The notes beneath the pieces are model-generated. The model ran no database searches. It was given only the letters and a program-made list of their open reading frames with translations, and was not told the origin of the DNA. A DNA stretch of 58,888 nt from Thermoleophilia bacterium (lineage in GTDB: Bacteria; Actinomycetota; Thermoleophilia; Gaiellales; Gaiellaceae): the NCBI GenBank assembly GCA_025934995.1, contig JAICWC010000003.1:1-58888 (forward strand), read 5' to 3'. Positions 41,392-58,888 of the stretch are shown one piece after another (position 1 is the stretch's first letter; each line of letters starts with the position of its first letter). Made by a program: the position numbers and the translations under genes.

Positions 41392-41456
41392 GTGAGTCCT
41401 CCTCCGCGAGGGGCCTGCCGGATCCGACGATCGTCGTAAGCGTCGCGCCGTCTGGC

Positions 41457-41496: not shown

Positions 41497-41527
41497 CGTT
41501 AGCGGATCCTGATGCGAGACTCGGGTC

Positions 41528-42142: not shown

Positions 42143-42167
42143 GACCGCGCACGGTACGGTGGGCGAC

Positions 42168-42683: not shown

Positions 42684-42688
42684 ACGAA

Positions 42689-42710
42689 CGGCCCGCTCTC
42701 CGACGGGCCG
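42689..42710 (+). terminator. Hairpin terminator after the SPOR-like gene
   Basis: CGGCCCG, eight-base loop, CGGGCCG, starting five bases after the stop; no strong T run. It may serve both this gene and the convergent PBP2 gene. Confidence 0.55.
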
Positions 42711-42782
42711 CTCGCTGTCAATTCCCCGATGTGATCGGAGTCCGTTGTAAGGGGATGATCGGCGCCCCCGGCATGCGGGGCG

Positions 42783-44696: not shown

Positions 44697-44795
44697 GCGC
44701 AGGCCGGAAGCACCGCCGGGGCGGGTGGGAAAGAGCGATCGCCTACGGCGGCGGCGGCGGGGATCGGGCGTCGAGATCGCTACAGCGCTTCCAGG

Positions 44796-45167
44796 TTACT
44801 CGGCAATTTCGTCGGCCAGAAGAGCGAGAGCGAGCGTCCGCCAGGCCCTGTCCGGATCGCCGCGCAGGGTATCCACGGCTTCGCTCACCCGCGGGAGCCC
44901 GTTCGTGTCGAGTGCCGCAAGCGCGGCCGCGAGCGCCCGGCGCCGCTGGGGGGAATCGAGCTCGTCCGCGAGCCGCTCGGCGGCGACGCTGTCGAGGGTG
45001 AGGTCGCGATGGGGGTCGCCGCCCGCGGCGAGCACCAACATCGCACGCCGGCGGGCGCCGTTCAGCTCGTCCTCGTCGAGCTCGACGTCGTCCTTGACGA
45101 GCCAGGCGACGGCCACGTCGACCGCGAGGTCGGATGCCTCTAGGTGTTCGAGGGCGTCTCGCGACAC
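44796..45167 (-). CDS. Small helical protein, hypothetical
   Basis: A 123-residue, almost wholly helical acidic protein with segments such as ALEHLEASDLAVDVAVAWLV, GARRRAMLVLAAGGDP and DRAWRTLALALLADEIAE. No family recognised. The GTG at 45167 lies inside the zinc-ribbon gene upstream (28-base overlap in another frame), so the two are probably translated in sequence; starting further upstream would run across that gene. Confidence 0.6.
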   Translation of the reverse strand: MSRDALEHLEASDLAVDVAVAWLVKDDVELDEDELNGARRRAMLVLAAGGDPHRDLTLDSVAAERLADELDSPQRRRALAAALAALDTNGLPRVSEAVDTLRGDPDRAWRTLALALLADEIAE

Positions 45168-45280
45168 TCGGCCGTCTCGCCTTCGCAGCAGCCGAGCTTC
45201 AGGCGGCATTTGGGGCACTGAAAGCTGCCGTGGCGCCACTCCATGTCGGCGTTACAGCGCGGGCACGGCTCCTGGCTCAT
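45140..45280 (-). CDS. 46-residue zinc-ribbon protein
   Basis: A very small protein with CPRC at residues 6-9 and CPKC at 22-25, the spacing of a complete rubredoxin-like zinc ribbon, and further Cys at 31, 32 and 39. Its ATG overlaps the stop of the GNAT gene (ATGA) and its 3' end overlaps the helical gene downstream, so it sits in a tightly coupled run. Short zinc ribbons of this kind often act as adaptors in nucleic-acid or protein binding; here the function is unknown. Confidence 0.65.
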   Translation of the reverse strand: MSQEPCPRCNADMEWRHGSFQCPKCRLKLGCCEGETAECRETPSNT

Positions 45281-45990
45281 GTGTCAGAGCGTACGGACTC
45301 GACCCGACGGAGCTCGAGCACCTGCTCGAAACCGAGCCGCTCGAGGATGGGTCGGGACATCGGCCCGGCGCCGACTGCGAGCGCCGGTGTTCCGCGCGCG
45401 ACGACGGCGTCCCAGCGCGCCCGCACGACTGCGCGGTACGCACCACGGCCGCGCGCCCATTCGGCGGTCGCGCCGCCGATCAGGAACCCTCCGACGCGCG
45501 TCAGGACCACGCTTCCGACCGATGCCATGCGACCGTCGATCCAGGCGGCGAACGACGGATCGATCCGCCGCGTCCATTCGCGGGCCAGCTCCTCGCGCGG
45601 CTGCTCCGGCTCGGGGTTGCCGAAGGCGGCGCGCGTGATCCTGCGCGCCTCGACGTACTCCTCGAACGTCGCCACCTCGCGCACCTCGACCTCGTCGACG
45701 CGCGGCGGCTCCGACGTCAGCAGCATCGCCGCGTGCAGGTAGTCGTCGTCGTACCGTTTCAGGCCGCACGCGAGCAGCTGCTCTTCGAGGTCGTCCGGCG
45801 TCGAGCGCTCGCTCAGCCACCAGCTGCACTTCTGGACCTGTGCGTCGCGCACGAGGCCGTCGACTTGGGCGACGGCGACCTCGACGTCCCCGAGGCGGAT
45901 CCCCTCGACGGCTGCCCATGTGCGCCCGATGTCCCCGGCGAACGCAAAGCCGTCGGTGACACGCAGCAGCCGGCCCGGCGCTGGCTCCAT
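45277..45990 (-). CDS. GNAT-family N-acetyltransferase
   Basis: A protein of about 237 residues. The C-terminal half has the GNAT fold signs: a strand with GSVVLTRVGGFLIGGATAEWARGRG leading into the acetyl-CoA-binding loop and helix (ARGRGAYRAVVRARWDAVVARG), then ALAVGAGPMSRPILERLGFEQV, the usual closing motif. The N-terminal half may be a second, degenerate GNAT unit. The start is uncertain: the ATG at 45990 avoids overlap with the aminotransferase gene, whose stop is at 46025. Substrate unknown. It ends in an ATGA overlap with the zinc-ribbon gene. Confidence 0.75.
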   Translation of the reverse strand: MEPAPGRLLRVTDGFAFAGDIGRTWAAVEGIRLGDVEVAVAQVDGLVRDAQVQKCSWWLSERSTPDDLEEQLLACGLKRYDDDYLHAAMLLTSEPPRVDEVEVREVATFEEYVEARRITRAAFGNPEPEQPREELAREWTRRIDPSFAAWIDGRMASVGSVVLTRVGGFLIGGATAEWARGRGAYRAVVRARWDAVVARGTPALAVGAGPMSRPILERLGFEQVLELRRVESVRSDT

Positions 45991-46024
45991 GAACCAGCTC
46001 GGCGCCTCCGCGAAGTCGACGAGG

Positions 46025-47380
46025 TCAGCCCGTGTAGTACTCGTCGGCGATCGAGAGGACGTCGTCGAGGATCGCGATCCCTTCGTCGAGCTCATCGCGC
46101 GTGATCGTCAGCGGCGGGCACACCATGATCACGTTCCAGTGCGTCATCAGATAGAGCCCGCGCTCGAGCGCGGCCTTGGCCATCCGCCCGACCGGCTGCA
46201 TCTGCTCCGCGTTCGCGTTGAACGGGACGAGCAGCTCGCGCGTCTCGCGGTTCCGCACCAGCTCGAGGCCCCAGAAGCAGCCGAGGCCGCGCACCTCGCC
46301 GATCGACGGGTGCTTGTCGGCGAGACCTTCGAGCGCGTCGCGGAAGACGTCGTTCATCTCCGCCGCATGCTCGACGATGCCCTCCTCGCGGAACGCCTCG
46401 ATCGAGGCGACGCCGACCGCGCACGCGAGCGGGTGACCGCTGTACGTGAGGCCGCCGGCGAACGGGCGCGAGCGGATCCACTCCGCGATCGGCTCGCGAA
46501 TCGCCATCGCGCCGAGTGGGATGTACCCGGAGTTGATCCCCTTCGCCATCGTGATGATGTCGGGCACGACGTTCCAGTGGTCGACGGCGAACCACCGGCC
46601 GGTGCGGCCGAAGCCGGCCATCACCTCGTCGGCGATCAGGAGGATCCCGTGGCGGTCGCAGACCTCGCGGATCGACTGCAGGTAGCCGTCGGGCGGGACG
46701 ATGATCCCGTTCGTCCCGGTCACCGTCTCGAGGATGACCGCAGCCACGGTGTTCGGGCCCTCGTACTGCAGGATCTCCTCCAGGTGCGGCGCGCCGGTGC
46801 ACACCGGGCAGGGGTCCGGATGGCCGGCGGGGCACCGATAGGTGTACGGATCGAACATCCGCACGACGCCGCTGATGCCGGGCTCGGCCGGCCAGCGGCG
46901 CGGATCGCCCGTGAGCGAGATCGCGCCTGCGGTTGCGCCGTGGTAGCTGCGGTAGCGCGCGACGATCTTGTGCCGGCCGGTGTACCAGCGTGCGAGCTTG
47001 ATCGCGTTCTCGTTGGCCTCGGCGCCGCCGTTCGTGAAGAACGCCATGGAGATGTCGCCGGGCGTGACCTCGCTGATCAGTCGCGCGAGCGTCGAGCGCG
47101 GCTCGGTCGCCATCGGCGGGCCGATCGTGCACAGCTTGTCGGCCTGCTCCTTGATCGCGGCGACGAGCTTCGGATGCTGGTGACCGATCGAGACGTTGAC
47201 GAGCTGCGACGCAAAGTCGAGGTAGCGCTTGCCCTCGTAGTCCCAGAAGTGCCGGCCTTCCGCACCTGCAACGGCAATTGGATTGAGGGCGTCCTGCACC
47301 GACCAGGAGTGGAGGACGTATTGCTTCGCGTCCGCGACGACCTGCGCGCCGAGCTGGGGATTCGTCTCGATCGTGGCCAT
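46025..47380 (-). CDS. Class III PLP-dependent aminotransferase (omega-amino acid:pyruvate type)
   Basis: A 451-residue fold-type I aminotransferase of the omega-aminotransferase group, full length. Visible are the FFTNGGAEANENAIKLAR phosphate-binding region, SYHGATAGAISLTG, the PLP-contact Asp in LLIADEVMAGFGRTG, and the Schiff-base Lys at about 280 in MAKGINSGYIPLG. It most resembles taurine:pyruvate and beta-alanine:pyruvate aminotransferases. With the semialdehyde dehydrogenase across the divergent promoter and pyrimidine-type genes nearby, beta-alanine to malonate semialdehyde is the most coherent reaction. With the adjoining sulfite oxidase, taurine is the alternative. It begins two bases after the sulfite oxidase stop, so both are one operon. 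Confidence 0.85.
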   Translation of the reverse strand: MATIETNPQLGAQVVADAKQYVLHSWSVQDALNPIAVAGAEGRHFWDYEGKRYLDFASQLVNVSIGHQHPKLVAAIKEQADKLCTIGPPMATEPRSTLARLISEVTPGDISMAFFTNGGAEANENAIKLARWYTGRHKIVARYRSYHGATAGAISLTGDPRRWPAEPGISGVVRMFDPYTYRCPAGHPDPCPVCTGAPHLEEILQYEGPNTVAAVILETVTGTNGIIVPPDGYLQSIREVCDRHGILLIADEVMAGFGRTGRWFAVDHWNVVPDIITMAKGINSGYIPLGAMAIREPIAEWIRSRPFAGGLTYSGHPLACAVGVASIEAFREEGIVEHAAEMNDVFRDALEGLADKHPSIGEVRGLGCFWGLELVRNRETRELLVPFNANAEQMQPVGRMAKAALERGLYLMTHWNVIMVCPPLTITRDELDEGIAILDDVLSIADEYYTG

Positions 47381-47382
47381 GC

Positions 47383-48396
47383 TCAGACCTTAACGCGGAC
47401 CCACTGGACTGCGTTGTTGCAGTAACCGCCGTGGTTCCAGGTCGCGGTCAGCGGCTGCACGTTGCCGGCGGAATCGCCGGCGCGGCAGCAGAGCTCGTGC
47501 TCGCCCGCGGTCGCGTCCCAGGCGAACCGCCACCCGCGCCACGCGAACTCTCCGAGCGGTGCGTCGAGCTCTGCGTCCGCCCACGTCGCACCTCCGTCGT
47601 CGCTCACCTCGACGCGCGTGATCTCGCCCTGCCCCGACCACGCACGCCCGGTGATCGTCTGGCGCCCGGAGTCGGCGAAGCGCTCGCGCGTCAGGAAATC
47701 CGGGATGCCGGGCGGCACGAGCAGCGAACGCGGCAGCATGCGCTGCACCGGCACGTCGTCGATCAGATACGCCTCCGTCTGCTGCCAGCCCGTGAACGGC
47801 TCGGGGACGGCCTCGATCCGCTGCAGCCACTTGACGTGCGTCATCCCGTACCAGCCCGGCACGACGAGCCGGAGCGGGAAGCCGTGCTGCGCCGGTAGCG
47901 GCTCGCCGTTCATCTCGTACGCGAGCAGGACCTCGTCCCGCAGCGCATCCTCGAGCGAGAGCGAGCGCTGGTACACGTGCTCGACTCCACCTTGGACGCC
48001 GTGGTCGGCGCCGGTGAAGACGATCTCCGCGGCGCCGTCGACGAGCCCCGTCTCGCGCAGCAGGGGCGCGAGCGGCGTACCGGTCCACTCGGCCGTCCCG
48101 ACGGCCTCGATCAGCCATGGCTGGCTCTCGGCGCGCTCGCCCTCGAGGAGCGCCCGCCCGTTGCCGGCGCACTCGAGCGTCACCGGCAGGGTCACGCGCT
48201 TGCGTGCCTGCAACTCCGCCAGTGTGAACGCCGAGCCGCCGACCTGCAGCCGCCACGTCGCCGCGTCGATCGCCGGGATGTCGAAGTGGATGAGGAGGTA
48301 GTGGAGCCCGGTCGGCGTCAGCGGCTCGCGCAGCATCTCCAGGGGAAAGCCGTGGTTCCGGGCGGCGAGGCCGAGCTCGTCCATGCTGATCGCCAC
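47383..48396 (-). CDS. Sulfite oxidase-family molybdopterin enzyme
   Basis: A 337-residue protein with the oxidoreductase molybdopterin-binding domain (SUOX fold), then the Mo-co dimerisation domain (about residues 225-337; ITRVEVSDDGGATW). The molybdenum-ligand Cys is in LECAGNGR (about residue 76); GADHGVQGG and HGFPLRLVVPGWYGMTHVKWL line the cofactor site. No Tat or Sec signal is seen, so it is probably cytoplasmic, like plant sulfite oxidase and unlike many bacterial SorA/SorT. No heme domain. The GTG at 48396 has a TAGCGT six bases upstream and is preferred; ATG 48384 is possible. It heads the minus-strand operon. Confidence 0.85.
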   Translation of the reverse strand: MAISMDELGLAARNHGFPLEMLREPLTPTGLHYLLIHFDIPAIDAATWRLQVGGSAFTLAELQARKRVTLPVTLECAGNGRALLEGERAESQPWLIEAVGTAEWTGTPLAPLLRETGLVDGAAEIVFTGADHGVQGGVEHVYQRSLSLEDALRDEVLLAYEMNGEPLPAQHGFPLRLVVPGWYGMTHVKWLQRIEAVPEPFTGWQQTEAYLIDDVPVQRMLPRSLLVPPGIPDFLTRERFADSGRQTITGRAWSGQGEITRVEVSDDGGATWADAELDAPLGEFAWRGWRFAWDATAGEHELCCRAGDSAGNVQPLTATWNHGGYCNNAVQWVRVKV

Positions 48397-48401
48397 GCCG
48401 T

Positions 48402-48408
48402 TACGCTA
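48402..48408. promoter_or_regulatory. Overlapping divergent -10 elements (symmetrical promoter)
   Basis: The 17-base gap between two divergent start codons contains TTACGCTAA. Read on the plus strand it gives TACGCT (48402-48407) six bases before ATG 48414. Read on the minus strand it gives TAGCGT (48403-48408) six bases before GTG 48396. One near-palindromic hexamer thus seems to serve both leaderless genes. Confidence 0.65.
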
Positions 48409-48413
48409 ACCCA

Positions 48414-49928
48414 ATGACAGAGACTCTCGAAGCGCCAGCGCAGCTCAAGCAGATCGACCACTGGATCGGCGGCCGGGCCGTCGCCGGCACGTCCGGCCGC
48501 AGCGGCGCCGTCTACAACCCCGCGACGGGCCGGCAGACGGGGGAGGTCGACTTCGCGACGGAAGCGGAGGTCGATGCCGCCGTCCAGGCCGCGAAGCAGG
48601 CGTTCGTCGAATGGCGCACCATGTCGCTCGCAAAGCGCGCCGACCTCTTCTTCCGGATCCGCGAGCTCATCAACGAGCGCAAGGAAGAGGTCGCCCGCCT
48701 GCTCGTCGCCGAGCACGGAAAGGTGCTGTCGGACGCGCTGGGCGAGGTGACGCGCGGGCTCGAGGTGATCGAGTACTGCTGCGGCCTGCCGACGCTGCTC
48801 AAGTCCGAGTACTCGGAGCAAGTCTCGACCGGGATCGACGTCTACTCGATCCGGCAGCCGCTCGGCGTCGTCGCCGGGATCACGCCGTTCAACTTCCCGG
48901 CGATGGTGCCGATGTGGATGTGGGCGCCTGCGATCGCCTGCGGCAACACGTTCGTGCTCAAGCCGTCGGAGAAGGATCCGTCCGCGTCGGTATGGACGGC
49001 CGAGCTGCTGAAGGAAGCCGGCCTTCCAGACGGCGTGTTCAACGTCGTGCACGGCGACAAGGTCGCCGTCGACGCGGTGCTGGACCATCCCGACATCGCC
49101 GCCGTCTCGTTCGTCGGTTCGACGCCGATCGCGAAGTACGTCTACGAGACGGCGACTGCGAAGGGGAAGCGCTGCCAGGCGCTCGGCGGCGCGAAGAACC
49201 ACATGATCGTCCTGCCGGACGCGGATGTCGACATGGCCGCGGATGCGGCCGTCTCGGCCGCGTACGGCTCGGCGGGCGAGCGCTGCATGGCGATCTCGCA
49301 AGTCGTGGCAGTCGGTCACGTCGCAGACGAGCTGATCGACGCGATCAAGGCGCGCATCCCGAAGGTGAAGGTCGGCGACGGCCTCGATCCGTCGTCGGAG
49401 ATGGGCCCGCTCGTGACGAAGGAACATCGCGACCGCGTCGCCTCCTACGTGGAGAACGCGCCGGGCGAAGGCGCGAAGGTCCTCGTCGACGGTCGTGAAG
49501 GCGCGCCCGGCGAGGGTTTCTTCCTCAAGCCGTCGCTGCTCGACGACGTCAAGCCGGGAATGAAGGCGTACGAGGACGAGATCTTCGGTCCGGTGCTCGG
49601 CGTCACGCGCGTCGACACCTACGACGAGGCTGTGCGGCTGATCAACGAGAACCCGTACGGGAACGGCACCGCGATCTTCACCCGCGACGGCGGCGTCGCT
49701 CGTCAGTTCCAGTTCGACGTCCAGGCCGGAATGGTCGGCATCAACGTGCCGATCCCGGTGCCCGTCGCGTATTACTCGTTCGGCGGCTGGAAGGCGTCGC
49801 TCTTCGGCGACCGACACGTCTACGGCCCGGAGGGGATCGAGTTCTACACGCGCGGCAAGGTCGTCACATCGCGGTGGCCGGATCCGGCCACGTCGAAGGT
49901 CGACCTCGGGTTTCCGCAGACGCGGTAG
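48414..49928 (+). CDS. mmsA: CoA-acylating methylmalonate/malonate-semialdehyde dehydrogenase
   Basis: A 504-residue ALDH of the MMSDH type. Diagnostic features are the entry LKQIDHWIGGRAV, GITPFNFPAMVPMWMWAPA, the nucleophile Cys at about 291 in GERCMAIS and PVAYYSFGGWKASLFGD; the usual general-base Glu in the ELGGKN box is replaced (QALGGAKNHM), as in known MMSDHs. The enzyme converts (methyl)malonate semialdehyde and CoA to propionyl-CoA or acetyl-CoA with CO2 release, ending valine, inositol or beta-alanine breakdown. Its stop overlaps the GTG of the M24 gene by one base, so it heads a three-gene operon. Leaderless start as described for the shared promoter. Confidence 0.92.
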   Translation: MTETLEAPAQLKQIDHWIGGRAVAGTSGRSGAVYNPATGRQTGEVDFATEAEVDAAVQAAKQAFVEWRTMSLAKRADLFFRIRELINERKEEVARLLVAEHGKVLSDALGEVTRGLEVIEYCCGLPTLLKSEYSEQVSTGIDVYSIRQPLGVVAGITPFNFPAMVPMWMWAPAIACGNTFVLKPSEKDPSASVWTAELLKEAGLPDGVFNVVHGDKVAVDAVLDHPDIAAVSFVGSTPIAKYVYETATAKGKRCQALGGAKNHMIVLPDADVDMAADAAVSAAYGSAGERCMAISQVVAVGHVADELIDAIKARIPKVKVGDGLDPSSEMGPLVTKEHRDRVASYVENAPGEGAKVLVDGREGAPGEGFFLKPSLLDDVKPGMKAYEDEIFGPVLGVTRVDTYDEAVRLINENPYGNGTAIFTRDGGVARQFQFDVQAGMVGINVPIPVPVAYYSFGGWKASLFGDRHVYGPEGIEFYTRGKVVTSRWPDPATSKVDLGFPQTR

Positions 49929-51082
49929 TGCAGCGCATATCGGCAAGCGAGCTCGCGCAGCGCCGCGACCGTCTGCGCGAGCACGCGCCCGAGGGCTTCG
50001 TCCTCTTCACGCCGGATGCGATCCGCTACTTCACCGACTTCTGGTTCCTCTCGAACGAGCGTCCGATCGCGTACGTCGAGCTCGACGGCGACGAGCCGTT
50101 CGTGTTCGTGCCGGGGTTCGAGGTCGAACGGACACAAGCGGAGACCTCGTTCGCGCGCATCGAGTCGTACCCCGAGTATCCCGGCATCGAGCACCCGATG
50201 CACGTGCTCGCGAGGCTCGTCGGGAAGCGCGAGCGGATCGGCGTCGACAACGACGGCTACCCGGGCATCCTCGGCTACGCCGGGCCGTCGCTGAGCGAGG
50301 TCAGCGGCGCGACGGTGGCGCTGCTCGGCGATGCGATCGAGTCGCTCCTTCGCATCAAGAGCCCTGCCGAGATCGAGCTGATCCGAGAGAGCGGGAGGTG
50401 GTGCGCACACGCGCACCGCTTGCTGCAGGAGTTCACGCGCGTCGGCGTGACGGAAGCCGAAGCGAGCCTCCGCGCATCGTCGGAGTCGACGCTCGCGATG
50501 CTCGAGTCGGGCGAGTACGGGCAGCTCGGCTCGGCCGACGGCGTCAAGGCCGGATACCGAGGACAGATCGGCGTGCGCAGCGCCTGGGCGCACGCGATCG
50601 GCCACGACATCGAGTTCGCCGCCGGCGACCTGCTCGTCAGCGAGACCGGGGCGCCGGTGTGGGGCTACAACGCCGAGCTGGAGCGGGGGATGGTGATCGG
50701 CGAGCCGAGCGACCGCGTCAAGTGGATGTTCGAGCATGTCGTCGCCGCGCAGCAGGTCGCGTTCGACGCGTTCGGGCCCGGCATCACGTGCGCGGACGTC
50801 GACGGGGCGGTCATGCGCTACTTCGAGCAGCACGACCTGCTGCCGTACTGGCGCCAGCACACGGGGCACGGCGTCGGCCTCCGCAACCACGAGGCGCCGT
50901 TCCTCGACGTCGGCGACCACACGCTGGTCGAGCCCGGCATGGTCTTCACGATCGAGCCCGGCGTCTACGACTCACAGGTCGGCGGGCTTCGCCACTCGGA
51001 CACGGTCGTCGTCACCGAGGACGGGGTCGAGATCCTGACGGACTACCCGCGGAACCTCGAGAGCCTTACGATCCCGGTCTGA
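49928..51082 (+). CDS. M24-family hydrolase, creatinase type (not a metallopeptidase pattern)
   Basis: A 384-residue protein with a creatinase-N domain (about 1-135) and a pita-bread M24 domain (about 140-384). The metal ligands of aminopeptidase P are altered. The two Asp positions read Glu in SETGAPVWGYNAELERG, and the last Glu is Ser in RHSDT; only His (HTGHGVGL) and Glu (FTIEPGVY) remain. The GY...LER pattern is like that of creatinase, a metal-free C-N hydrolase, and of ectoine hydrolase. Hydrolysis of a small guanidino, amide or N-acyl compound is therefore more likely than peptidase activity. It overlaps mmsA by one base upstream and the AhpD-like gene by one base downstream (TGATG). 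Confidence 0.75.
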   Translation: MQRISASELAQRRDRLREHAPEGFVLFTPDAIRYFTDFWFLSNERPIAYVELDGDEPFVFVPGFEVERTQAETSFARIESYPEYPGIEHPMHVLARLVGKRERIGVDNDGYPGILGYAGPSLSEVSGATVALLGDAIESLLRIKSPAEIELIRESGRWCAHAHRLLQEFTRVGVTEAEASLRASSESTLAMLESGEYGQLGSADGVKAGYRGQIGVRSAWAHAIGHDIEFAAGDLLVSETGAPVWGYNAELERGMVIGEPSDRVKWMFEHVVAAQQVAFDAFGPGITCADVDGAVMRYFEQHDLLPYWRQHTGHGVGLRNHEAPFLDVGDHTLVEPGMVFTIEPGVYDSQVGGLRHSDTVVVTEDGVEILTDYPRNLESLTIPV

Positions 51083-51597
51083 TGTTCATCGACGTTCCCG
51101 AGAGCAACGAGCCGAACATGGTGCGCGCCTTCGCACTTCGTCCGGACGTGCTGCGCGCGTGGCAGGAGTTGAACGGTGCCATCAAGGAGGCCGCGGACCT
51201 CCGCCGTTACGAGCTGGCGACGCTCGCCGCCGCGCGCACGTTGCGGTCGAGCTACTGCTGCCTCGCGCACGGCAAGGTGCTCGCCGAGCAGTTCTACGAT
51301 GCCGAGACGGTGGTGCAGCTGCCGGGCGGGCTCGACGACGCGGATCGCGCCGTGATGGCATTCGCCGAGAAGGTCGTGGTCGACGCAACGTCGATCGCGC
51401 AGGCCGATGTCGACGAGCTTCGCGGCCACGGGCTCACCGACGCGCAGATTGCCGACGTCGTCTTGGCAGCCGCCGCGCGCTGTTTCTTCAGCAAGACGCT
51501 CGACGCCCTGGGCGCGCAGCCGGACGCGTCGTACAACGAGTTGCCTGCGACGCTCCGCGACGCCATGGTCGTCGGACGCCCGATCGCTACGGACTGA
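51082..51597 (+). CDS. Carboxymuconolactone decarboxylase/AhpD-like protein
   Basis: A 171-residue helical protein of the AhpD/peroxidase-related family. The core reads RRYELATLAAARTLRSSYCCLAHGKVL, i.e. a conserved Glu followed by SxxCxxxH; the first Cys of the redox pair of AhpD is Ser, with an extra Cys beside the second. Peroxidase activity with a CxxC mechanism is thus doubtful, and a single-Cys version is possible. It is the last gene of the mmsA operon (TGATG overlap). Its 3' end overlaps the convergent deaminase gene by 11 bases. Confidence 0.8.
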   Translation: MFIDVPESNEPNMVRAFALRPDVLRAWQELNGAIKEAADLRRYELATLAAARTLRSSYCCLAHGKVLAEQFYDAETVVQLPGGLDDADRAVMAFAEKVVVDATSIAQADVDELRGHGLTDAQIADVVLAAAARCFFSKTLDALGAQPDASYNELPATLRDAMVVGRPIATD

Positions 51598-52843
51598 AGG
51601 TTACCGGCTCGCCGAGGAGCGTCGTGCGCGCGGGGGTCGTCTCGGCGACGACCCGGCCGCGTCGGATGACCCAGCGTCGCGGCGGGTGCAGCCGCAGCAC
51701 CTCGAGCGCGTTCGGCGCGTCGTAGACCACCAGGTCGGCCGGCTTGCCCTCCTCGAGCCCGTACTCGTCCTCGACGCCGAGCGTGCGCGCGCCGCGCTCG
51801 GTTGCGCAGCGCAGCATCTCCGGGATCTCCTCGCGTCCGCTCATGTACGTGAAGTGCAATGCGAGCGACGCCGCCTCGACCATGTCGGCGCGTCCGAGCG
51901 AATACCACGGGTCCATGACCACGTCGTTGCCGAGCGAGACGTTGACGCCGGCGGCGAGCAGCTCCTTCAGCTGCGCGAAGCCGCGGCGCTTCGGATAGGC
52001 GTCGAGACGTCCCTGGATCAGCGAGTTCGCGAACGGGTTGACGACGACGTTGATCCCGCTGCGGCGAAGGAAGCCGTGCAGCTTGGACGAGTAGTACGGC
52101 TCGTACGATCCCATCGCGGTGCAGTGCGAAGCGGTGACGCGGCCGGCCATCGCGTGCTTGACGGTGTCGTCGGCCATCACTTCGAGGAAGCGTGAATTCG
52201 GATCGTCGGTCTCGTCGCAGTGCACGTCGATCCGCCGTGAGTACTGCTTCGCGAGATCGAAGACGCGGTGCACCTCGAGCAGTCCGAGCTCGGACGTCGG
52301 CTCGTAGTGAGGGATGCCGCCGACGCAGTCGACGCCGAGCCTGATCGCGTGCTCGAGCCGCTGCTCGTCGCCGTCGCGCTGGAAGATGCCGTCCTGCGGA
52401 AACGCCGTCACCTGGACCGTGCAAAGCTCTGCGACGTCGTCACGTAGACGGAGCAGTCCGCGCACCATTGCATCGTTCTCGCCTGAGACGTCCGCGTGGG
52501 CGCGGATGAAGAGGGTTCCCTGCGCGACCGACCAGCGCACGATCTCCCGCGCGCGCTCGTAGACGTCCTGCTCGGTGAGGGACGGCTTGAGCTCGCCCCA
52601 GACGTCGATGCCCTCGAGCAGGGTTCCGGATTCGTTCCAGCGCGGTTTGCCTGCCGTCAGGGACGCGTCGAGGTGAAGGTGGCAGTCGACGAGCGGCGCC
52701 GTCGCGAGCCGGCCCTCGGCATCGATCTCCGTCGCGCCGTCCGCTGCGAGGTCTGTGCCGATGCGCGTCCAGCGGTGGTCGTCGGCGAGGAGGTCGACGA
52801 GGCTGCCGTCGAGCAGCCTCGCGTTCCGTATGAGGAGGCTCAT
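51587..52843 (-). CDS. codA: Cytosine deaminase-like amidohydrolase
   Basis: A 418-residue metal-dependent amidohydrolase closest to CodA. Key sites in order are the metal pair HLHLD, ESGTLLEGIDVWGE, the HCDETDDPNSRFLE box (metal His and the proton-shuttling Glu), the TASHCTAMG His, and GNDVVMDPWYSLG with the catalytic Asp. CodA has His before this Asp-rich turn (GHDD), here Asn. CodA-type enzymes deaminate cytosine, isoguanine or creatinine; which applies cannot be read here. The ATG overlaps the stop of the upstream GH25 lysozyme gene (ATGA), an odd but clear coupling. Convergent with the AhpD-like gene. Confidence 0.85.
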   Translation of the reverse strand: MSLLIRNARLLDGSLVDLLADDHRWTRIGTDLAADGATEIDAEGRLATAPLVDCHLHLDASLTAGKPRWNESGTLLEGIDVWGELKPSLTEQDVYERAREIVRWSVAQGTLFIRAHADVSGENDAMVRGLLRLRDDVAELCTVQVTAFPQDGIFQRDGDEQRLEHAIRLGVDCVGGIPHYEPTSELGLLEVHRVFDLAKQYSRRIDVHCDETDDPNSRFLEVMADDTVKHAMAGRVTASHCTAMGSYEPYYSSKLHGFLRRSGINVVVNPFANSLIQGRLDAYPKRRGFAQLKELLAAGVNVSLGNDVVMDPWYSLGRADMVEAASLALHFTYMSGREEIPEMLRCATERGARTLGVEDEYGLEEGKPADLVVYDAPNALEVLRLHPPRRWVIRRGRVVAETTPARTTLLGEPVTFSP

Positions 52844-54798
52844 CTGAAGGAGAGCGTAAACCCGCCGCGGCGCCCGTACGGATCGACCGCGACGAGGTGC
52901 ACGACGTGTGTCCCCCGGCGCACGCGAATCTTCACGGGGAACGTGCCGGGGGCGAGAATGCGCCTCCGCCCCGGCTGGAAGAAGATCTGCGACGGAGTCG
53001 ACATCCGCGTCGACACGATCCGCGCCCCGCTCCGGAGCGTCGTCACCCTGATCGGCGCGACCCGGCGGAGGCGGGGCGCGAAGCGCGACACCTTGCGCGG
53101 GTCGCCCCATGCGTTCGGGACGAAGAGCCTGTAGAAGCCCGGCTTGCGCGTCAGGACTTGGCCCTGATAGACGCCGGCGAGCAGGCCGCTGGGCAGGGCG
53201 CCCGCGGTGAGCGGCGCCACCGCCGACCAGACACGGCCGTCCGTCGAGAAGCCGACGACCTGCGTGTCGGGCGGCGTCGCATAGGCGATGTCGAGGGGCC
53301 AGGCCAGCGTCTTGATCTGGGGCGACAGCGTCAGCGCGAGCTGCGCACCGGAGGTCGCGAGCCCGACGGCAGTCCCGGCCGGCACGGCCCCGGGCTGCCA
53401 GGTGACCGTGGCGGAGCCGTCGGCGGTGACGACCGCGCCCGCCTGGCCCAGTTGCGCCGTCGCCGACTCGGGAGTCGGCGCGGGCACCGGCGCAGCGAGC
53501 ACGACGCCCGTGGGCGACGAGGTCGCCGTCTGGGCCCCGACGCTGTTCGTCGCGTTCACGAAGAGCTCGATCGTCGCGCCGATGTCCCCCGGCGTGAGGA
53601 GGTACGTCGCCGCCGTTGCGCCCTCGATCGGTGCGCACGCACCGGCGCTCGCGTCGCAGCGCTGCCACTGGAACGAATACGACGTGGGCGAGCCGCTCCA
53701 CGTGCCCGTCGTCGCGGTCAGCGTGGAGCCGACGACGGCGGTGCCCGAGATCTGTGGCGGCGCAGTCACGGCCGGCACCGTCGCGCCGCTCGCTGCTGCG
53801 ACCGGAGTCGTCGGCGCCGAGGATGCTGTTGCGGCGAGGGACTTCGACGTCGCGGTCACGGTCACGACGATCGTGTGGCCGACGTCGTTGACCGACGGCG
53901 TGTACGACTCGAGCGTCGCGCCGGAGATCGGCACGCAGTTCGCGCCGACTCCGTCGCACGCCTCCCATTGATACGTGAACGTGACCGGCTTGCCGCCGTT
54001 CCACGTTCCGGGCACCGCAGCGAGCTTCGCGCCGGCGCGCGGCGTGCCGACCAGCGTCGGCGGCGTTGCGGACGACGGCGCGCCAGAGGGCAGCGCCGCG
54101 AGCGCGAAGCCGCCCGGATCCGGACCGTTGACGCGGTCGCCGTCGACGCACTTCGTCGAGATGCCCGGAACGGAGAGACAGTCCGACCACTGCCAGAACG
54201 ACCAGCCGAGACCGCCCCAGTTCGACGCGGGGACGAGCGGCGCGCCTGCACTCGTCCAGTGCGCGACCCAGAGATGATGGCTGCCGGTCGCGAACGACGT
54301 CGTGTCGCCCAGGTACGTCTTCCAGAAGCTCGGGGACGTGTAGATCATCGCGCTGACTCCGGTGCGTGCTGTGACCTCGTCGAGCCACGCCTGCGTCCAC
54401 TTGACGAGCGCCGGCTGCTTGAGCCCGTTCACCGTCTCGAGGTCGAGCACCGGCGGGAGATCGCCTCCGCGGGGCTGCGCGACGTCCACGAAATGGTCGG
54501 CCTGCGCGATCGCGCTCGCCGTGATCGTCGCATCGCTCGTGCCCGCCGGCTGCGCGAAGTGGTATGCGCCGAAGTACAGGCCCGCAGCCTTCGTCCCCGT
54601 GCGGTTGATCGCGTACGTGGCGTCCGTGAACGTCGTCCCCTCGCTCGCCTTCGCAAACGCGAACGTGTAGCCGGCGCCCGCGACCTGCAGCCAATCGATC
54701 GACGATCCCTGGTGGTTCGAGACGTCGACGCCCTTCGGATACGTGGCGGCGCTGCAGACGAGGACGAACGCCAGAAGCGCGAGAGCTCTCGACCCCAC
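52840..54798 (-). CDS. Secreted GH25 lysozyme with Ig-like repeats
   Basis: A 652-residue exported protein. A signal peptide (GSRALALLAFVLVCSAATYP) precedes a GH25 muramidase domain (about 22-230): KGVDVSNHQG, YTFAFAKASEG and PPVLDLETV hold the catalytic Asp and Glu. Two Ig-like repeats of about 90 residues follow (each with a TWNGGKPVTFTYQWEACDG or TWSGSPTSYSFQWQRCD core and a Cys pair). A beta-rich C-terminal region ends with a strand like GTHVVHLVAVDPYG. It would cut cell-wall glycan outside the cell. The GTG at 54798 has TACCCT six bases upstream, a leaderless start. Its stop overlaps the deaminase start, so the two are transcribed together. Confidence 0.88.
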   Translation of the reverse strand: MGSRALALLAFVLVCSAATYPKGVDVSNHQGSSIDWLQVAGAGYTFAFAKASEGTTFTDATYAINRTGTKAAGLYFGAYHFAQPAGTSDATITASAIAQADHFVDVAQPRGGDLPPVLDLETVNGLKQPALVKWTQAWLDEVTARTGVSAMIYTSPSFWKTYLGDTTSFATGSHHLWVAHWTSAGAPLVPASNWGGLGWSFWQWSDCLSVPGISTKCVDGDRVNGPDPGGFALAALPSGAPSSATPPTLVGTPRAGAKLAAVPGTWNGGKPVTFTYQWEACDGVGANCVPISGATLESYTPSVNDVGHTIVVTVTATSKSLAATASSAPTTPVAAASGATVPAVTAPPQISGTAVVGSTLTATTGTWSGSPTSYSFQWQRCDASAGACAPIEGATAATYLLTPGDIGATIELFVNATNSVGAQTATSSPTGVVLAAPVPAPTPESATAQLGQAGAVVTADGSATVTWQPGAVPAGTAVGLATSGAQLALTLSPQIKTLAWPLDIAYATPPDTQVVGFSTDGRVWSAVAPLTAGALPSGLLAGVYQGQVLTRKPGFYRLFVPNAWGDPRKVSRFAPRLRRVAPIRVTTLRSGARIVSTRMSTPSQIFFQPGRRRILAPGTFPVKIRVRRGTHVVHLVAVDPYGRRGGFTLSFR

Positions 54799-54804
54799 GC
54801 GACG

Positions 54805-54828
54805 AGGGTAGCCAGAGCGCGTTAGGCT
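54805..54828. promoter_or_regulatory. Divergent -10 boxes of lysozyme and agmatinase-family genes
   Basis: On the minus strand TACCCT (plus positions 54805-54810) lies six bases before GTG 54798. On the plus strand TAGGCT (54823-54828) lies seven bases before ATG 54836. The whole divergent spacer is 37 bases. Confidence 0.55.
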
Positions 54829-54835
54829 CGCAGCA

Positions 54836-55786
54836 ATGTCACAAGGTCCTTACAAACCGCTCGACGCGCAGGTGATCCCGCGCTTTGCCGGGATCCGCAC
54901 CTTCATGCGTGCACCGCACGTAACAGACCTCACGGGCGTCGACGTCGCGGTGTACGGCATTCCGTTCGACACTGCGACGAGCTATCGCACCGGGCCGCGC
55001 TTCGGGCCCGAGGCAATCCGCAGCGCGTCCGCGCTTCTGCGGCCCTACAACCCCGCACTCGCCGTGAACCTCGTCGACGCGCTGTCGATCGTCGACTACG
55101 GCGACGTCCCCGTTTCACCGGGCGACACGGAGCGCACGTATGCGCAGGTCGAGGAAGCGCTCGCGCCGATCGTCGAGGCCGGTGTCTTTCCTGCGGCGCT
55201 CGGCGGCGACCACGCGATCACGCTCGCGGAGCTGCGCGCGCTTGCCAAGAAGCACGGCCCGCTCGCGCTCGTGCAGCTCGACTCGCACGGCGACGTGTGG
55301 GAGTCGTACTTCGGCCAGCGCTACTTCCACGGGACGACGTTCAAGCGTGCGCTCGAAGAGGATTTGCTCGACCCGACCGCATCCGTGCAGGCCGGCATGC
55401 GCGGCTCGCTCTACGGGCCGGACGACATCCAGATCGCGAAGGACTTCGGGTTCACGGTGCTCACGACCGACGAGCTGCGCGAGCTCGGTCCGCAGCGCTA
55501 CGGCGAGCTCGTGCGCGAGAAGACCGGCGACCGTCCGGTCTTCGTGTCGTTCGACATCGATTTCCTCGACCCGGCGTTCGCACCGGGCACCGGCACGCCG
55601 GAGGCGGGCGGCTTCTCGACTGCAGAGGCGCTCGCGTTCGTGCGCAACTTGAAGGGAATCCGTCTCGAAGGTTGCGACGTCGTCGAGGTGTCGCCGCCGT
55701 ACGACAACGCCGGCGCCGTCACCGCGCTAGCAGCTGCAACCGTCATGTACGAGCTCCTATCCCTCCGCGCGTGCTTGCCTGCCTGA
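54836..55786 (+). CDS. Agmatinase-family ureohydrolase (guanidino-compound amidinohydrolase)
   Basis: A 316-residue member of the arginase/agmatinase superfamily, full length. Manganese-binding motifs: GGDHAIT, DSHGDVWE (the more usual form is DAHxD) and SFDIDFLDPAFAPGTGTPE. The enzyme would remove urea from a guanidino compound. Agmatine, guanidinobutyrate and guanidinopropionate hydrolases look alike at this level. It starts an operon with the deacetylase (16-base overlap) and the NCS1 permease, which argues for a ureide or guanidino substrate imported from outside rather than polyamine synthesis. Confidence 0.85.
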   Translation: MSQGPYKPLDAQVIPRFAGIRTFMRAPHVTDLTGVDVAVYGIPFDTATSYRTGPRFGPEAIRSASALLRPYNPALAVNLVDALSIVDYGDVPVSPGDTERTYAQVEEALAPIVEAGVFPAALGGDHAITLAELRALAKKHGPLALVQLDSHGDVWESYFGQRYFHGTTFKRALEEDLLDPTASVQAGMRGSLYGPDDIQIAKDFGFTVLTTDELRELGPQRYGELVREKTGDRPVFVSFDIDFLDPAFAPGTGTPEAGGFSTAEALAFVRNLKGIRLEGCDVVEVSPPYDNAGAVTALAAATVMYELLSLRACLPA

Positions 55787-56601
55787 CGTTCGACGTCGAC
55801 GCCGAGGCGCCGATCCTCGTCGAGAGCGGCTTGTACGCGCGCAACCTCGGCGTCATGTCGCACCAGGCGTACGGCCCGCTCGTCGGCGTCCCGCGCATCC
55901 TCGAGCTGCTGCGCGAGTACTCCCTCCCGGCGACGTTCTTCGTCCCGGGCTGGACGGCCGACCGCTATCCGCAGACCGTCGAGGCGATTCTCGCGGCCGG
56001 CCACGAGGTCGGGCACCATTCGTACGCGCACTTCTCCCCGTTCGCGCAGACGGAGGACGAGGAACGCGTGGACTTCGAGCGCGCGCTCGCCTCGCTGCGT
56101 GCGGTCGGCGCGGATCCCGTCGGCTTCCGCTGCCCGAGCTGGGAGCCCGGTTGGCGGACGCCGGCGCTCGTCGCCGAGCACGGACTGCAGTACGACTCGT
56201 CGCTGATGGACTCCGACAAGCCGTACGTCCTCGACACGGGCGCGGGGGAGATCGTCGAGCTGCCGGTGCACTGGGCGCTCGACGACTGGGAGCAGTACGC
56301 ATACATCCCCGATCCGCCCTTCCGCTCGGCGATCGAGTCGCCGCAGAAGGTGCTCGACCTCTGGCTGAGCGAGCTCGACGCGATGCGGCGCTACGACTGC
56401 CTCTTCGTCCTGACGTGCCATCCGTTCCTCAGCGGCCGACCGCACCGCGTCGAGGTGCTGCGGAGGCTCATCGAGCACGCGCTGGAGGGCGGCGACGTCC
56501 AATTCCATGCCTGCCGCGAGGTCGCTGCGATGGAGTGGCCCGATCGACGCGCCCTCCGGCCTGTCGAGGTCGACCCGCTGGTCTATCCGGACCGAACCTG
56601 A
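55771..56601 (+). CDS. Polysaccharide deacetylase-fold hydrolase, PuuE-like
   Basis: A 276-residue cytoplasmic NodB-fold protein without signal peptide. Metal-site motifs: TFDVDAEAP (catalytic and metal Asp) and GHEVGHHSYAH (His pair), followed by GFRCPSWEPGW. Its resemblance is to the PuuE allantoinase and peptidoglycan-deacetylase-like subgroup with the HH motif, which includes enzymes acting on cyclic ureides. The GTG at 55771 lies within the last codons of the agmatinase-family gene and gives the family's typical beginning. It sits between that gene and an NCS1 permease, which favours a ureide or amide substrate over chitin-type sugars. Confidence 0.78.
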   Translation: MLACLTFDVDAEAPILVESGLYARNLGVMSHQAYGPLVGVPRILELLREYSLPATFFVPGWTADRYPQTVEAILAAGHEVGHHSYAHFSPFAQTEDEERVDFERALASLRAVGADPVGFRCPSWEPGWRTPALVAEHGLQYDSSLMDSDKPYVLDTGAGEIVELPVHWALDDWEQYAYIPDPPFRSAIESPQKVLDLWLSELDAMRRYDCLFVLTCHPFLSGRPHRVEVLRRLIEHALEGGDVQFHACREVAAMEWPDRRALRPVEVDPLVYPDRT

Positions 56602-56607
56602 GAATCT

Positions 56608-56628
56608 CTCCCTAACTCGTCAGGGAGG
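56608..56628 (+). promoter_or_regulatory. Hairpin covering the permease ribosome-binding site
   Basis: CTCCCT (56608-56613), an eight-base loop, then AGGGAG (56622-56627). The second arm is most of the GGGAGG Shine-Dalgarno site (56623-56628), four bases before the ATG at 56633. The stem could keep the site closed. Confidence 0.4.
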
Positions 56629-56632
56629 CGAC

Positions 56633-58054
56633 ATGGAGCAACAAGGCGAGCTGGCCGCAGCGGTCACGCTCGACGAGCACGGCATCGCGCCGGTCCGCCC
56701 CGAGGACCGGACGTCGACGCCGTGGCGGCAGTTCTGGATCTGGGCCGGCGCGAACATCGCGCCGATCAACTGGATCCTCGGCGCGCTCGGGATCATCCTC
56801 GGGCTCAGCCTCGTGGAGACGCTCGTCGTCCTCGTCATCGGCAACGTCGTCGGGTGCGCGTTCTTCGGCCTGTTCTGCGTGATGGGCCATCGCACCGGCG
56901 TCAATCAGATGGTGCTCTCGCGCGCGGCATTCGGCCGGCGCGGCGCCTATCTCCCGGCGGTCGCACAGCTGCTGATGACGATGGGCTGGCTCGGCGTCAA
57001 CACCTGGGTCGTGCTCGATCTCGTGCTCGGGATCTTCAAGCACATGGGCTACGACCATCCCGGGACGGGCACGAAGTACGCGGTCGGCATCGGGATCATG
57101 GCGGTGCAGGTCGTGATCGCGATCGTCGGCTTCTACCTGATCCAGGCGTTCGAGAAGTACACGGTGCCCGTCGCCGGCCTGATCGTGATCGTCATGAGCA
57201 TCCTCGCCTGGACGAAGGTGAACGTCGTCTGGACCCATTCGACCGCGCATGGGGCGGACAAGCTGACGGCGGTGACACAGCTGCTGACGGCGATCGGCGT
57301 CGGTTGGGGCATCACCTGGCTGACGTGGTCGTCCGACTACACGCGGTTCATCAAGCCGAGCGTCCCGGACCGCAAGGTCTTCTGGACGACCTGGTCGGCG
57401 ATTCTCATCCCGACTGTGTGGCTCGGCTTCCTCGGCGCGTCGATCGCGAGCGGCGGCGTGCAGAACGACCCCGCCGACTTCGTGACGGCGGCGTTCGGCG
57501 GCTTCTCGATCCCGATCTTGTTCCTCGTCATGCATGGGCCGGTGGCGACGAACATCCTCAATCTCTACTCGGCGACGCTCGCCGCCCTCTCGATCGACAT
57601 CAAGGCGGCGCGCTGGAAGGTCAGTGTGGTCGTGTCGATCGTCGGCACAGGCGCGCTCATCTGGTTCATCCAGGACTCGAACTGGGCGAACAAGTTCGAC
57701 GAGTGGCTCGCGTCGGTCGTGCTGTGGATCTCGGCGTGGGCCGGCGTCATGTGCGTCGACTACCTCGTGTTCCGGCGCGGGAAGATCGACATCCCGGCGC
57801 TGTATGCGTCGCCGAGCGAGTCGATCTACGGCGACGTCAACTGGGCTGCGGTGATCGGCATGCTCGCCGGCGTCGTGGCCGGCTGGGCGTGGGGCTACGG
57901 TCTCGTCGGCTTCCTGCAGGGGCCGATCGCGAAAGCGACGCACAACGTCGACCTCTCGTGGCTCACCGGGTTCGGCGTCGCCGCGATCCTCTACTACGTT
58001 CTGCGGCCCTTCCTCGCGAAGGAAGCGCAGGGGGCGGCGGTCACGACGCCGTAG
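56633..58054 (+). CDS. NCS1-family permease (cytosine/purine/allantoin/hydantoin type)
   Basis: A 473-residue integral membrane protein with about twelve hydrophobic segments, full length for the NCS1 family. Characteristic phrases are WIWAGANIAPINWILGALG in the first segment, GHRTGVNQMVLSRAAFGRRG, TWLTWSSDYTRFIKP (the SDYTR motif of segment 8) and NILNLYSATLAALS. It imports a nucleobase, hydantoin or related ring with a cation. It is the third gene after the ureohydrolase and the deacetylase, 31 bases downstream, and precedes (on the other strand) a dihydropyrimidinase/hydantoinase, which fits uptake of their substrates. Confidence 0.9.
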   Translation: MEQQGELAAAVTLDEHGIAPVRPEDRTSTPWRQFWIWAGANIAPINWILGALGIILGLSLVETLVVLVIGNVVGCAFFGLFCVMGHRTGVNQMVLSRAAFGRRGAYLPAVAQLLMTMGWLGVNTWVVLDLVLGIFKHMGYDHPGTGTKYAVGIGIMAVQVVIAIVGFYLIQAFEKYTVPVAGLIVIVMSILAWTKVNVVWTHSTAHGADKLTAVTQLLTAIGVGWGITWLTWSSDYTRFIKPSVPDRKVFWTTWSAILIPTVWLGFLGASIASGGVQNDPADFVTAAFGGFSIPILFLVMHGPVATNILNLYSATLAALSIDIKAARWKVSVVVSIVGTGALIWFIQDSNWANKFDEWLASVVLWISAWAGVMCVDYLVFRRGKIDIPALYASPSESIYGDVNWAAVIGMLAGVVAGWAWGYGLVGFLQGPIAKATHNVDLSWLTGFGVAAILYYVLRPFLAKEAQGAAVTTP

Positions 58055-58077
58055 CGCTCGCTTCTCGGGAACCGTGT

Positions 58078-58101
58078 GGCGCCCGCGTTCGCGCGGGCGC
58101 C
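58078..58101 (+). terminator. GC-rich terminator with TTCG tetraloop
   Basis: A perfect 10-bp stem GGCGCCCGCG/CGCGGGCGCC closed by TTCG, starting 24 bases after the permease stop. It lacks a T run but the stem is very stable. It separates the permease from the convergent small gene. Confidence 0.75.
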
Positions 58102-58114
58102 CCCGTTGCCGCGG

Positions 58115-58228
58115 CTAGTAGCCACCGCCACCGCCGCCGCCGCAGCCGCTGAGCAGCACGACGAGGGCGATGACGAGCAATGCGAGAGCGGTCGGAAGGA
58201 TGAGCCGGGCATACCGCATGTAAGGCAT
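58115..58228 (-). CDS. 37-residue lipoprotein-like membrane peptide
   Basis: A tiny gene: ATG 58228, a basic start (MPYMRYARL), one hydrophobic segment (ILPTALALLVIALVVL), then LSGC, a perfect lipobox, followed only by seven Gly and a final Tyr. If processed, the mature part would be a lipid-modified Cys with eight residues. Ten residues shorter starts (ATG 58219) are possible. It lies between the convergent permease gene and the dihydropyrimidinase gene upstream on the same strand, 36 bases away. Family unknown. Confidence 0.5.
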   Translation of the reverse strand: MPYMRYARLILPTALALLVIALVVLLSGCGGGGGGGY

Positions 58229-58264
58229 ACGCCCCGACGTTCGACGCGGATTGCCCGGACCCTT

Positions 58265-58888
58265 CTACGCGACTGCAGTGCGGGCCGGCGCGAGCTCCTC
58301 GCCGAACCGCGCGCGCTTCACGAACTGCCCGATGCCGGGCGAGGCGACGAGCTCGTCGTTCTCGACGAGGACGTTCCCACGCAGCAGCACGACGTCGGGA
58401 GCGCCGGTGACGACCGTTCCCTCGTACAGCGAGTAGTCCGCCTTCGAGTGGTGCGTCGACGCGGAGATCGTCACCTGCTTCTTCGGGTCGAAGACGACGA
58501 GATCGGCGTCGGAGCCGACGGCGACCGTGCCCTTGCGCGGGTAGAGGCCGAACAGCTTCGCCGGGTTCGTCGCGAGTAGCTCGACCATCCGGTTGAGCGT
58601 GATCCGTCCCTCGTTGACGCCGAAGTGGTGGATCATCTTCAGGCGGTCCTCGAGCCCCGGCCCCCCGTTCGGGATCTTCGAGAAGTCGTCCTTGCCGAGG
58701 GTCTTCTGACCGTCCCAGAGGAACGCGCAGTGATCGGTCGAGATCGCCGACAGGGCGTCGGTGCGCACTGCGTTCCAGAGGTAGTCGTGGTTCGAGGCAT
58801 CGCGCACCGGCGGCGAGTACACGTATTTCGCGCCTTCGAAGTTCGGCTTCGCGATGTCGTCGAGCGACTTGAAGAAATACTGCGTGCA
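58265..58888 (-). CDS. Dihydropyrimidinase/hydantoinase, C-terminal part (5' end outside window)
   Basis: The frame runs open to the last base of the window. The 207 residues seen are the C-terminal third to half of a cyclic amidohydrolase (full length about 460). STDHCAF contains the conserved Asp-His of the metal centre; NEGRITLNRMVELLATNPAKLFGLYPRKGTVAVGSDADLVVFDP is the classic end of the barrel before the terminal beta domain. Such enzymes open dihydrouracil, hydantoin or related rings. Position next to an NCS1 permease and close to CodA-like and semialdehyde dehydrogenase genes supports a pyrimidine or hydantoin catabolic role. No N-carbamoyl amino acid hydrolase is visible. Confidence 0.9.
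   Translation of the reverse strand, partial: CTQYFFKSLDDIAKPNFEGAKYVYSPPVRDASNHDYLWNAVRTDALSAISTDHCAFLWDGQKTLGKDDFSKIPNGGPGLEDRLKMIHHFGVNEGRITLNRMVELLATNPAKLFGLYPRKGTVAVGSDADLVVFDPKKQVTISASTHHSKADYSLYEGTVVTGAPDVVLLRGNVLVENDELVASPGIGQFVKRARFGEELAPARTAVA

Follow-up and report, generated by a model that had tools for sequence, protein, structure and literature searches.

The window analyzed here is a stretch of 58,888 nucleotides on contig JAICWC010000003.1 of a Thermoleophilia bacterium (assembly GCA_025934995.1; 2.85-Mb draft genome, completeness 88%). At 54836-58054 on the + strand it encodes a ureohydrolase (URE), a hydrolase of the PuuE fold (PUUE) and an NCS1-family permease (NCS1), with a cytosine-deaminase-like amidohydrolase (CDA) close by. 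The tentative reading, held with somewhat less than even confidence, is that the trio and CDA form a module that breaks down a cyclic acylguanidine or a similar ring (creatinine, glycocyamidine or dihydroisocytosine type); the original prediction covered the three genes but neither CDA nor the wider gene island around them. After import of the ring by NCS1, PUUE would hydrolyze the amide bond within it, giving a linear guanidino acid, from which URE would release urea and leave an omega- or beta-amino acid. In the present lineage, two further enzymes encoded in this island, a class III aminotransferase and an mmsA-like dehydrogenase, could carry the amino acid on to an acyl-CoA. CDA would deaminate this ring or a related one, and the ureide so formed could be processed by the island dihydropyrimidinase and, in relatives, a carbamoylase. 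We infer every reaction and substrate of this module from gene order, conservation, folds and residue signatures, all of them observed in the sequences and models described below. The enzyme types are all known, and their combination recurs in other bacteria; no report on this cassette was found in the titles and abstracts of the open-licence PMC papers listed.

Layout of the Trio

URE (54836..55786, +; 316 aa) is an arginase-family protein and a predicted guanidino-acid hydrolase (PF00491, E 9.9e-90; NCBIfam agmatinase models); PUUE (55771..56601, +; 276 aa; PF01522, E 2.9e-17) is a predicted metal-dependent cyclic-amide (ring-opening) hydrolase of the PuuE/HP0310 fold, and NCS1 (56633..58054, +; PF02133, E 3.2e-51) a permease for a ring-shaped nitrogen compound. 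Open reading frames and Pfam matches confirm the presence of the three genes that the original prediction had named, and the overlap that it had noted between the two hydrolase genes amounts to 16 bp; PUUE starts at GTG 55771 within the final codons of URE and stops at 56601. The further claim that the hydrolases run into the permease holds for the tight same-strand spacing but not for an overlap: after correction of the NCS1 start, a gap of 31 bp separates PUUE from NCS1. This start was placed at ATG 56633 by homology and by a ribosome-binding-site-like GGGAGG directly 5' of it; the first ATG of the open reading frame (56507), which would give a 95-bp overlap with PUUE, is disfavored by both and was rejected. 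The shared strand and tight spacing fit transcription of the trio as a single operon. A scan of 51000-58888 for transcription signals says little: no promoter of the sigma-70 type was recognized, against a chance expectation of 0.4, and the single terminator-like site, against 2.5 expected, fell within the URE gene.

Ureohydrolase Residues

The closest PDB matches of URE are the guanidinobutyrase 3nio (E 1.1e-83) and the guanidinopropionase 3nip (E 1.1e-82), GbuA and GpuA of P. aeruginosa, followed by the proclavaminate amidino hydrolase 1gq6, all ahead of any agmatinase. URE retains the arginase-family His/Asp metal set; its R69 aligns with the carboxylate-capping arginine R72 of GbuA, and its Y158 with the loop tyrosine Y157 of GpuA. 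According to excerpts of the respective papers, GbuA R72 could touch the substrate carboxylate (PMC9772407), and GbuA M161 and GpuA Y157 are substrate-recognition residues (PMC10833137). R69 is invariant across 20 aligned sequences, and W155 is invariant in this group. The R69/Y158 pair occurs in 33 of the 35 ureohydrolases from PUUE loci and the window, the two exceptions being paralogues, and, in the class set, in all 26 ureohydrolases of at least 47% identity, a count that takes in the window and named duplicates; both residues are absent from all eight controls at 39-43% identity, and a 31% paralogue likewise lacks the pair. In SpeB-type agmatinases, a Trp68-like residue of the neighboring subunit stacks on the agmatine amine; the segment NLAWEHN of SpeB corresponds to LLRPYN in URE, with the local alignment off by one. 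The active-site residues R69 and Y158 of URE point to a guanidino acid as its substrate. Trp155 corresponds to Asn in GbuA and GpuA, to Tyr in SpeB and to Trp in BtAGM (4dz4), so that the exact substrate of URE may differ from those of GbuA and GpuA. The ureohydrolase tree splits the PUUE-linked UREs between two clades with good support (99/97 and 99/94); the link between PUUE and URE is thus not one inherited block. The genome of the window holds a second ureohydrolase-like gene (G000:C148:460-1323, L002) with 33% identity to URE.

Fold and Residues of the PuuE-Like Hydrolase

PUUE scores well above the cut-off of PF01522 (Polysacc_deac_1; 63.2 vs. 23.1 bits), and its nearest solved relative is 3rxz of M. 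smegmatis (E 2.9e-82), deposited as a putative polysaccharide deacetylase. The AlphaFold model of PUUE (pLDDT 90.9) was closest to 3rxz (VIA Z 37.6), followed by HP0310 (3qbu, 32.8), 3s6o (30.3), 1z7a (29.7) and the PuuE allantoinase (3cl6, 29.6); ArnD and CE4 enzymes reached Z scores of at most 23.3, and no cyclic imidase occurred among the structures listed in this comparison. D10, H83 and H87 are invariant in 25 sequences and D8 nearly so; the conserved Asp/His/His residues are presumably metal ligands. In the alignments, PUUE, HP0310 and 3rxz have both histidines of the HxxxH motif, whereas PuuE has a Trp at the second; the PuuE allantoinase model TIGR03212 gave PUUE only 60.3 bits, far under its cut-off of 424.6. 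The simplest reading of PUUE is a cyclic-amide hydrolase that depends on a metal.

Permease and Deaminase

NCS1 matches PF02133 (Transp_cyt_pur) with 175 vs. 23.5 bits and stays under the cut-off of TIGR00800 (171.4 vs. 353.1 bits); it weakly matches the Mhp1 hydantoin permease and the cytosine permease. CDA (51587..52843, -, by open reading frame and start) passes the NF005748 cut-off (461.7 vs. 438 bits, on 51590-52780), and its best structural matches are to E. coli cytosine deaminase (best E 3.4e-108). Its active-site loop reads Asn-Asp-Val, where CodA has His-Asp-Asp; the same loop is found in L036-L040, the closest named relatives of the window, which are metagenome-assembled genomes (MAGs) labelled Actinomycetes, Thermoleophilia, Actinomycetota or Actinobacteria. 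The second Asp (CodA Asp314) is kept in the 17 other CDAs and replaced by Val in the window and in L036-L040. An excerpt of PMC6186785 states that this position (numbered 315 there) governs the use of 5-methylcytosine vs. cytosine, and names isocytosine as a further substrate of both E. coli cytosine deaminase and 8-oxoguanine deaminases. The CDA of the window therefore probably takes a different or substituted ring.

Conservation of the Gene Neighborhood

One scan of the named-genome sample for PUUE yielded 76 loci; since these were retrieved by patterns from the PUUE protein of the window, they are biased to its relatives and include some near-duplicates. Neighbors were counted within 6.5 kb of PUUE, and URE at 40% identity or more. 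Gene-neighborhood conservation, which the original prediction had named as a check, was found: the PUUE-URE pairing recurs in 29 of the 76 loci, with both genes adjacent on the same strand in 21 (alignment distances 9-263 bp) and 3.0-4.2 kb apart in eight, two of these on opposite strands. NCS1 occurs near PUUE in 48 loci, CDA in 22, and NCS1, CDA and URE together in 18. In five of these 18 (L036-L040), CDA lies on the opposite strand; the remaining 13 are same-strand sets of the four genes, ordered NCS1-CDA-PUUE-URE in nine and NCS1-PUUE-URE-CDA in four. The one-strand loci belong to Pseudonocardia (two), Microbispora (one), Actinacidiphila (two), Microtetraspora (one) and seven MAGs; named species with the cassette include Pseudonocardia acaciae, Pseudonocardia eucalypti, Microbispora corallina and Actinacidiphila oryziradicis.

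In the class sample (389 genomes), PUUE was detected in 56 genomes (E <=1e-30) and URE in 175; at least 13 of the 24 strongest PUUE matches (E <=1e-78) shared a contig with URE at a distance of about 8 kb or less, where well under one would be expected by chance (a rough estimate assuming at most about one URE per 3-Mb genome and a 16-kb target). In the phylum sample (396 genomes), PUUE was found in 14 genomes (E <=1e-40).

Three loci (L092, L093, L105) have CDA without URE near PUUE. By eye, genes resembling those for xanthine dehydrogenase subunits, adenosine deaminase and other amidohydrolases adjoin the cassette in L092 and L093, with an M20 carbamoylase-like protein recognized near PUUE in L093; these two loci are perhaps a purine-type variant of the cassette. 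Homologues of the creatininase family (PF02633, assigned in L077) lie near PUUE in seven of the 76 loci, four of them with URE; the seven (L077, L078, L079, L080, L083, L085, L087) are mycobacterial, and L077 also carries an amino acid permease, an epimerase and a short-chain dehydrogenase.

Proposed Pathway and Alternatives

Ureohydrolases require a free guanidinium group, and PuuE-type enzymes cut ring amides. If the amide nitrogen lies within a guanidine, as in a 2-imino-4-oxo ring, ring opening would yield the guanidinium that the ureohydrolase needs. The product suggested by the aminotransferase and the mmsA-like enzyme is beta-alanine or beta-aminoisobutyrate, which would make 3-guanidinopropionate or its methyl homologue the intermediate, derived from a dihydroisocytosine-type ring; creatinine or glycocyamidine would be the alternative. 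The original prediction had proposed a ureide whose opening releases a guanidino or carbamoyl group; the active-site residues of URE favor the guanidino acid in this proposal, but a cyclic guanidine fits better than a ureide, because a ureide that yields a carbamoyl acid needs no ureohydrolase. Its view that the trio is not a standard agmatine or polyamine operon is supported by the recurrent PUUE-URE pairing, the guanidino-acid residues and the neighboring genes for ring cleavage and omega-amino-acid use. A more elaborate version is possible, if doubtful: a dual-route island, a counterpart of the two known creatinine routes built from other protein families, in which CDA, dihydropyrimidinase and M20 carbamoylase would act in sequence, parallel to PUUE and URE, with a shared omega-amino-acid end. 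PUUE would then be a new cyclic-acylguanidine hydrolase whose substrate is a 2-imino-4-oxo ring, for example dihydroisocytosine or creatinine.

Several observations weigh against a cyclic-acylguanidine module. The largest PUUE group, 34 of the 76 loci (L041-L074 minus L050 and L072, plus L086 and L097), combines PUUE with an Old-Yellow-Enzyme (OYE)-family oxidoreductase and DUF1989, and none of these loci has URE; PUUE therefore need not produce a guanidino acid. This cassette, found in mycobacteria, Nocardia, Kribbella, Actinomadura and others, with a related NCS1 in 25 of the 34 loci, may open a related ring after reduction. NCS1, CDA and PUUE occur without URE in L092 and L093. An amino acid permease homologue lies near PUUE in five of the 29 URE loci (L080, L082, L090, L100, L101), so that the import step may vary between loci. 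At the 16 PUUE loci fetched from the phylum sample, URE of at least 40% identity is present in only four (L020, L021, L024, L025; the genome of the window excluded), and 12 of 18 URE loci in the family-f1 set described below lack PUUE on the available piece, several of the contigs being short. URE itself exceeds the cut-offs of two NCBIfam agmatinase models (TIGR01230, 233.7 vs. 174.3 bits; NF002564, 307.8 vs. 302 bits), and the tree places E. coli SpeB and Burkholderia BtAGM beside one PUUE-linked URE clade, with a support of 93/88 that lies below the tree's own mark; the tree thus does not separate agmatinase from guanidino-acid hydrolase. No guanidine riboswitch or other Rfam match reached the gathering score at 40000-58888 of the window or in ten related loci.

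Among the alternatives, CDA might act first: it would deaminate the ring to a hydantoin, imide or dihydropyrimidine, from which PUUE would make a carbamoyl acid by ring opening, with URE altered for that acid or for a side product. The gene order NCS1-CDA-PUUE-URE in nine loci would suit this sequence of steps, as would the fold of PUUE, since PuuE opens a hydantoin ring, and the two loci with NCS1, CDA and PUUE but no URE. The retained metal set and carboxylate arginine of URE argue against it, as does the presence of a dihydropyrimidinase and a carbamoylase that already handle ureides in this lineage; moreover, ureido hydrolysis is not known in the arginase superfamily. This ureide-first route is considered unlikely.

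A loose nitrogen-salvage island, whose genes share regulation and not one pathway, also appears unlikely, and ranks just behind. NCS1 and CDA would then serve cytosine or 5-methylcytosine, the dihydropyrimidinase dihydropyrimidines, URE imported linear guanidino acids, and PUUE an unrelated cyclic imide. Such an arrangement agrees with four loci (L140, L141, L142, L147) that have URE alongside dihydropyrimidinase and mmsA yet lack PUUE, CDA and NCS1, and with the residue other than Asp at position 314 of CDA, the position governing 5-methylcytosine use (PMC6186785, in part). The adjacency of PUUE and URE in 21 of 76 loci and the same-strand set of NCS1, CDA, PUUE and URE in 13 speak for a closer functional bond. 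Least probable is that URE is an ordinary agmatinase amid unrelated nitrogen-scavenging genes, as the two agmatinase cut-offs and the position of SpeB and BtAGM inside the same large URE clade would allow, given its recurrent pairing with PUUE, CDA and NCS1, its guanidino-acid cap arginine, and a documented case of the same misnaming in human "agmatinase" (AGMAT), which, in an excerpt of PMC9772407, cleaves guanidino acids and not agmatine.

If the cyclic-acylguanidine module is real, the names "agmatinase" (for URE) and "polysaccharide deacetylase" (for 3rxz-like PUUE) are misleading for this cassette, and the genes would represent a bacterial use of cyclic guanidines through a PuuE-type ring opener and a ureohydrolase.

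The Surrounding Island

Downstream of the trio, the contig end cuts a dihydropyrimidinase of which the C-terminal part remains (58265..58888, -); the partial protein scores 248.4 bits with TIGR02033, below the cut-off of 393.25, and its full-length relative in L037 reaches 617.6 bits. On the other side lie a CoA-acylating (methyl)malonate-semialdehyde dehydrogenase, mmsA-like (48414..49928, +; TIGR01722, 723.4 vs. 448.5 bits), and a class III aminotransferase (46025..47380, -; NF004718, 623.2 vs. 472 bits). The NF004718 model is named "hypothetical protein" and many aminotransferase models stay under their cut-offs for this protein, which probably acts on an omega-amino acid. A molybdopterin sulfite-oxidase-type oxidoreductase (PF00174; 47383-48396, -) sits between the aminotransferase and mmsA-like genes; it is not at that place among the called genes of L037 or L038. 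Between CDA and URE, a GH25 lysozyme-like protein with Ig-like repeats (52840..54798, -; PF01183), which at its stop shares 4 bp with the start of CDA, probably stands outside the pathway. It is odd company for a catabolic island; similar proteins occupy the same place in L036 and L038 and a position between NCS1 and dihydropyrimidinase in L037. Creatinases belong to the M24 family, and the M24 protein at 49874-51082 was considered as a candidate creatinase and rejected, since proline dipeptidases are its closest solved relatives (E 3.6e-35; creatinase 1chm, only 3e-17) and no match to it was found in L036-L040.

All five of these relatives retain CDA, URE, PUUE, dihydropyrimidinase and an NCS1 permease, which belongs to one of two types; the aminotransferase and mmsA-like genes recur in the island of close relatives. 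L037 and L038 have additional ABC transporter genes, and the edge of L038 holds an M20 protein above the cut-off of the hydantoinase/carbamoylase model TIGR01879. The family-f1 set comprises 18 of the 20 genomes among the listed URE matches of at least 65%, the window included (G577 and G579, partial matches, left out); its neighbor counts are restricted by contig ends. At these 18 URE loci, dihydropyrimidinase was found in 12, mmsA in 11, CDA in eight, NCS1 in the same eight and PUUE in six, each of the six also with CDA and NCS1. URE is thus a frequent member of a dihydropyrimidinase/mmsA island, which seems to have gained a module for import and opening of a ring through NCS1 and CDA, and then PUUE. 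The 4.5-kb contig of G502 has PUUE next to dihydropyrimidinase and M20 but no URE.

Nine draft genomes, 76-94% complete, were searched for two further functions. None had a PreA-type dihydropyrimidine dehydrogenase above the cut-off of NF006183 (two of 14 control genomes did), and a complete uracil pathway in the genome was rejected on this ground; the island dihydropyrimidinase therefore probably works on imported saturated rings. The urease alpha subunit was found in none of the nine, so that urea is probably waste, excreted or otherwise handled.

Other Features of the Window

Elsewhere, one uninterrupted reading frame covers 9206-37813 on the + strand (about 9535 codons, 28.6 kb), with a coding-like GC3 of 0.93 and no Pfam match in its first 3000 residues; two tRNA predictions antisense inside it (10306-10396 and 22177-22270) are probably spurious. 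A tRNA-Gly, an integrase-like fragment (below the Pfam cut-off) and a Gp49-type toxin paired with an HTH antitoxin-like protein follow at 38586-40629, which looks like an old integration site.

Comparison with Known Systems

GbuA and GpuA of P. aeruginosa share the carboxylate arginine with URE, and GpuA also the loop tyrosine; they differ in having Asn at the position of Trp155, and NCS1, CDA and PUUE are neighbors of URE. PuuE (3cl6) and the HP0310 deacetylase (3qbu) have the same fold as PUUE; with both histidines of its motif PUUE resembles HP0310, and differs from PuuE, whose family cut-off it does not reach. The structures 7esr and 7oi1, which we take to be GdmH, and metformin hydrolase A belong like URE to the arginase superfamily but are more distant matches (E 3.2e-52 and about 1e-20, respectively); URE differs from these systems by its single subunit gene and the lack of a guanidine riboswitch match. 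The operons of Ni-dependent guanidine and metformin hydrolases contain nickel chaperone genes (PMC11399263, in part); by eye, none were recognized among the called genes here, and no HypA/HypB HMM search was made. With reductive pyrimidine catabolism, the island has in common a dihydropyrimidinase, a carbamoylase (in relatives), an aminotransferase and an mmsA-like dehydrogenase, but it lacks PreA above the cut-off and has URE in addition.

The closest parallel in logic is bacterial creatinine degradation, where ring opening is followed by urea release, or deamination by hydantoin hydrolysis. Both a creatininase route and a deaminase route are described in an excerpt of PMC10215027. The module proposed here would follow the same logic, with a PuuE-like enzyme in place of creatininase and an arginase-family enzyme in place of creatinase.

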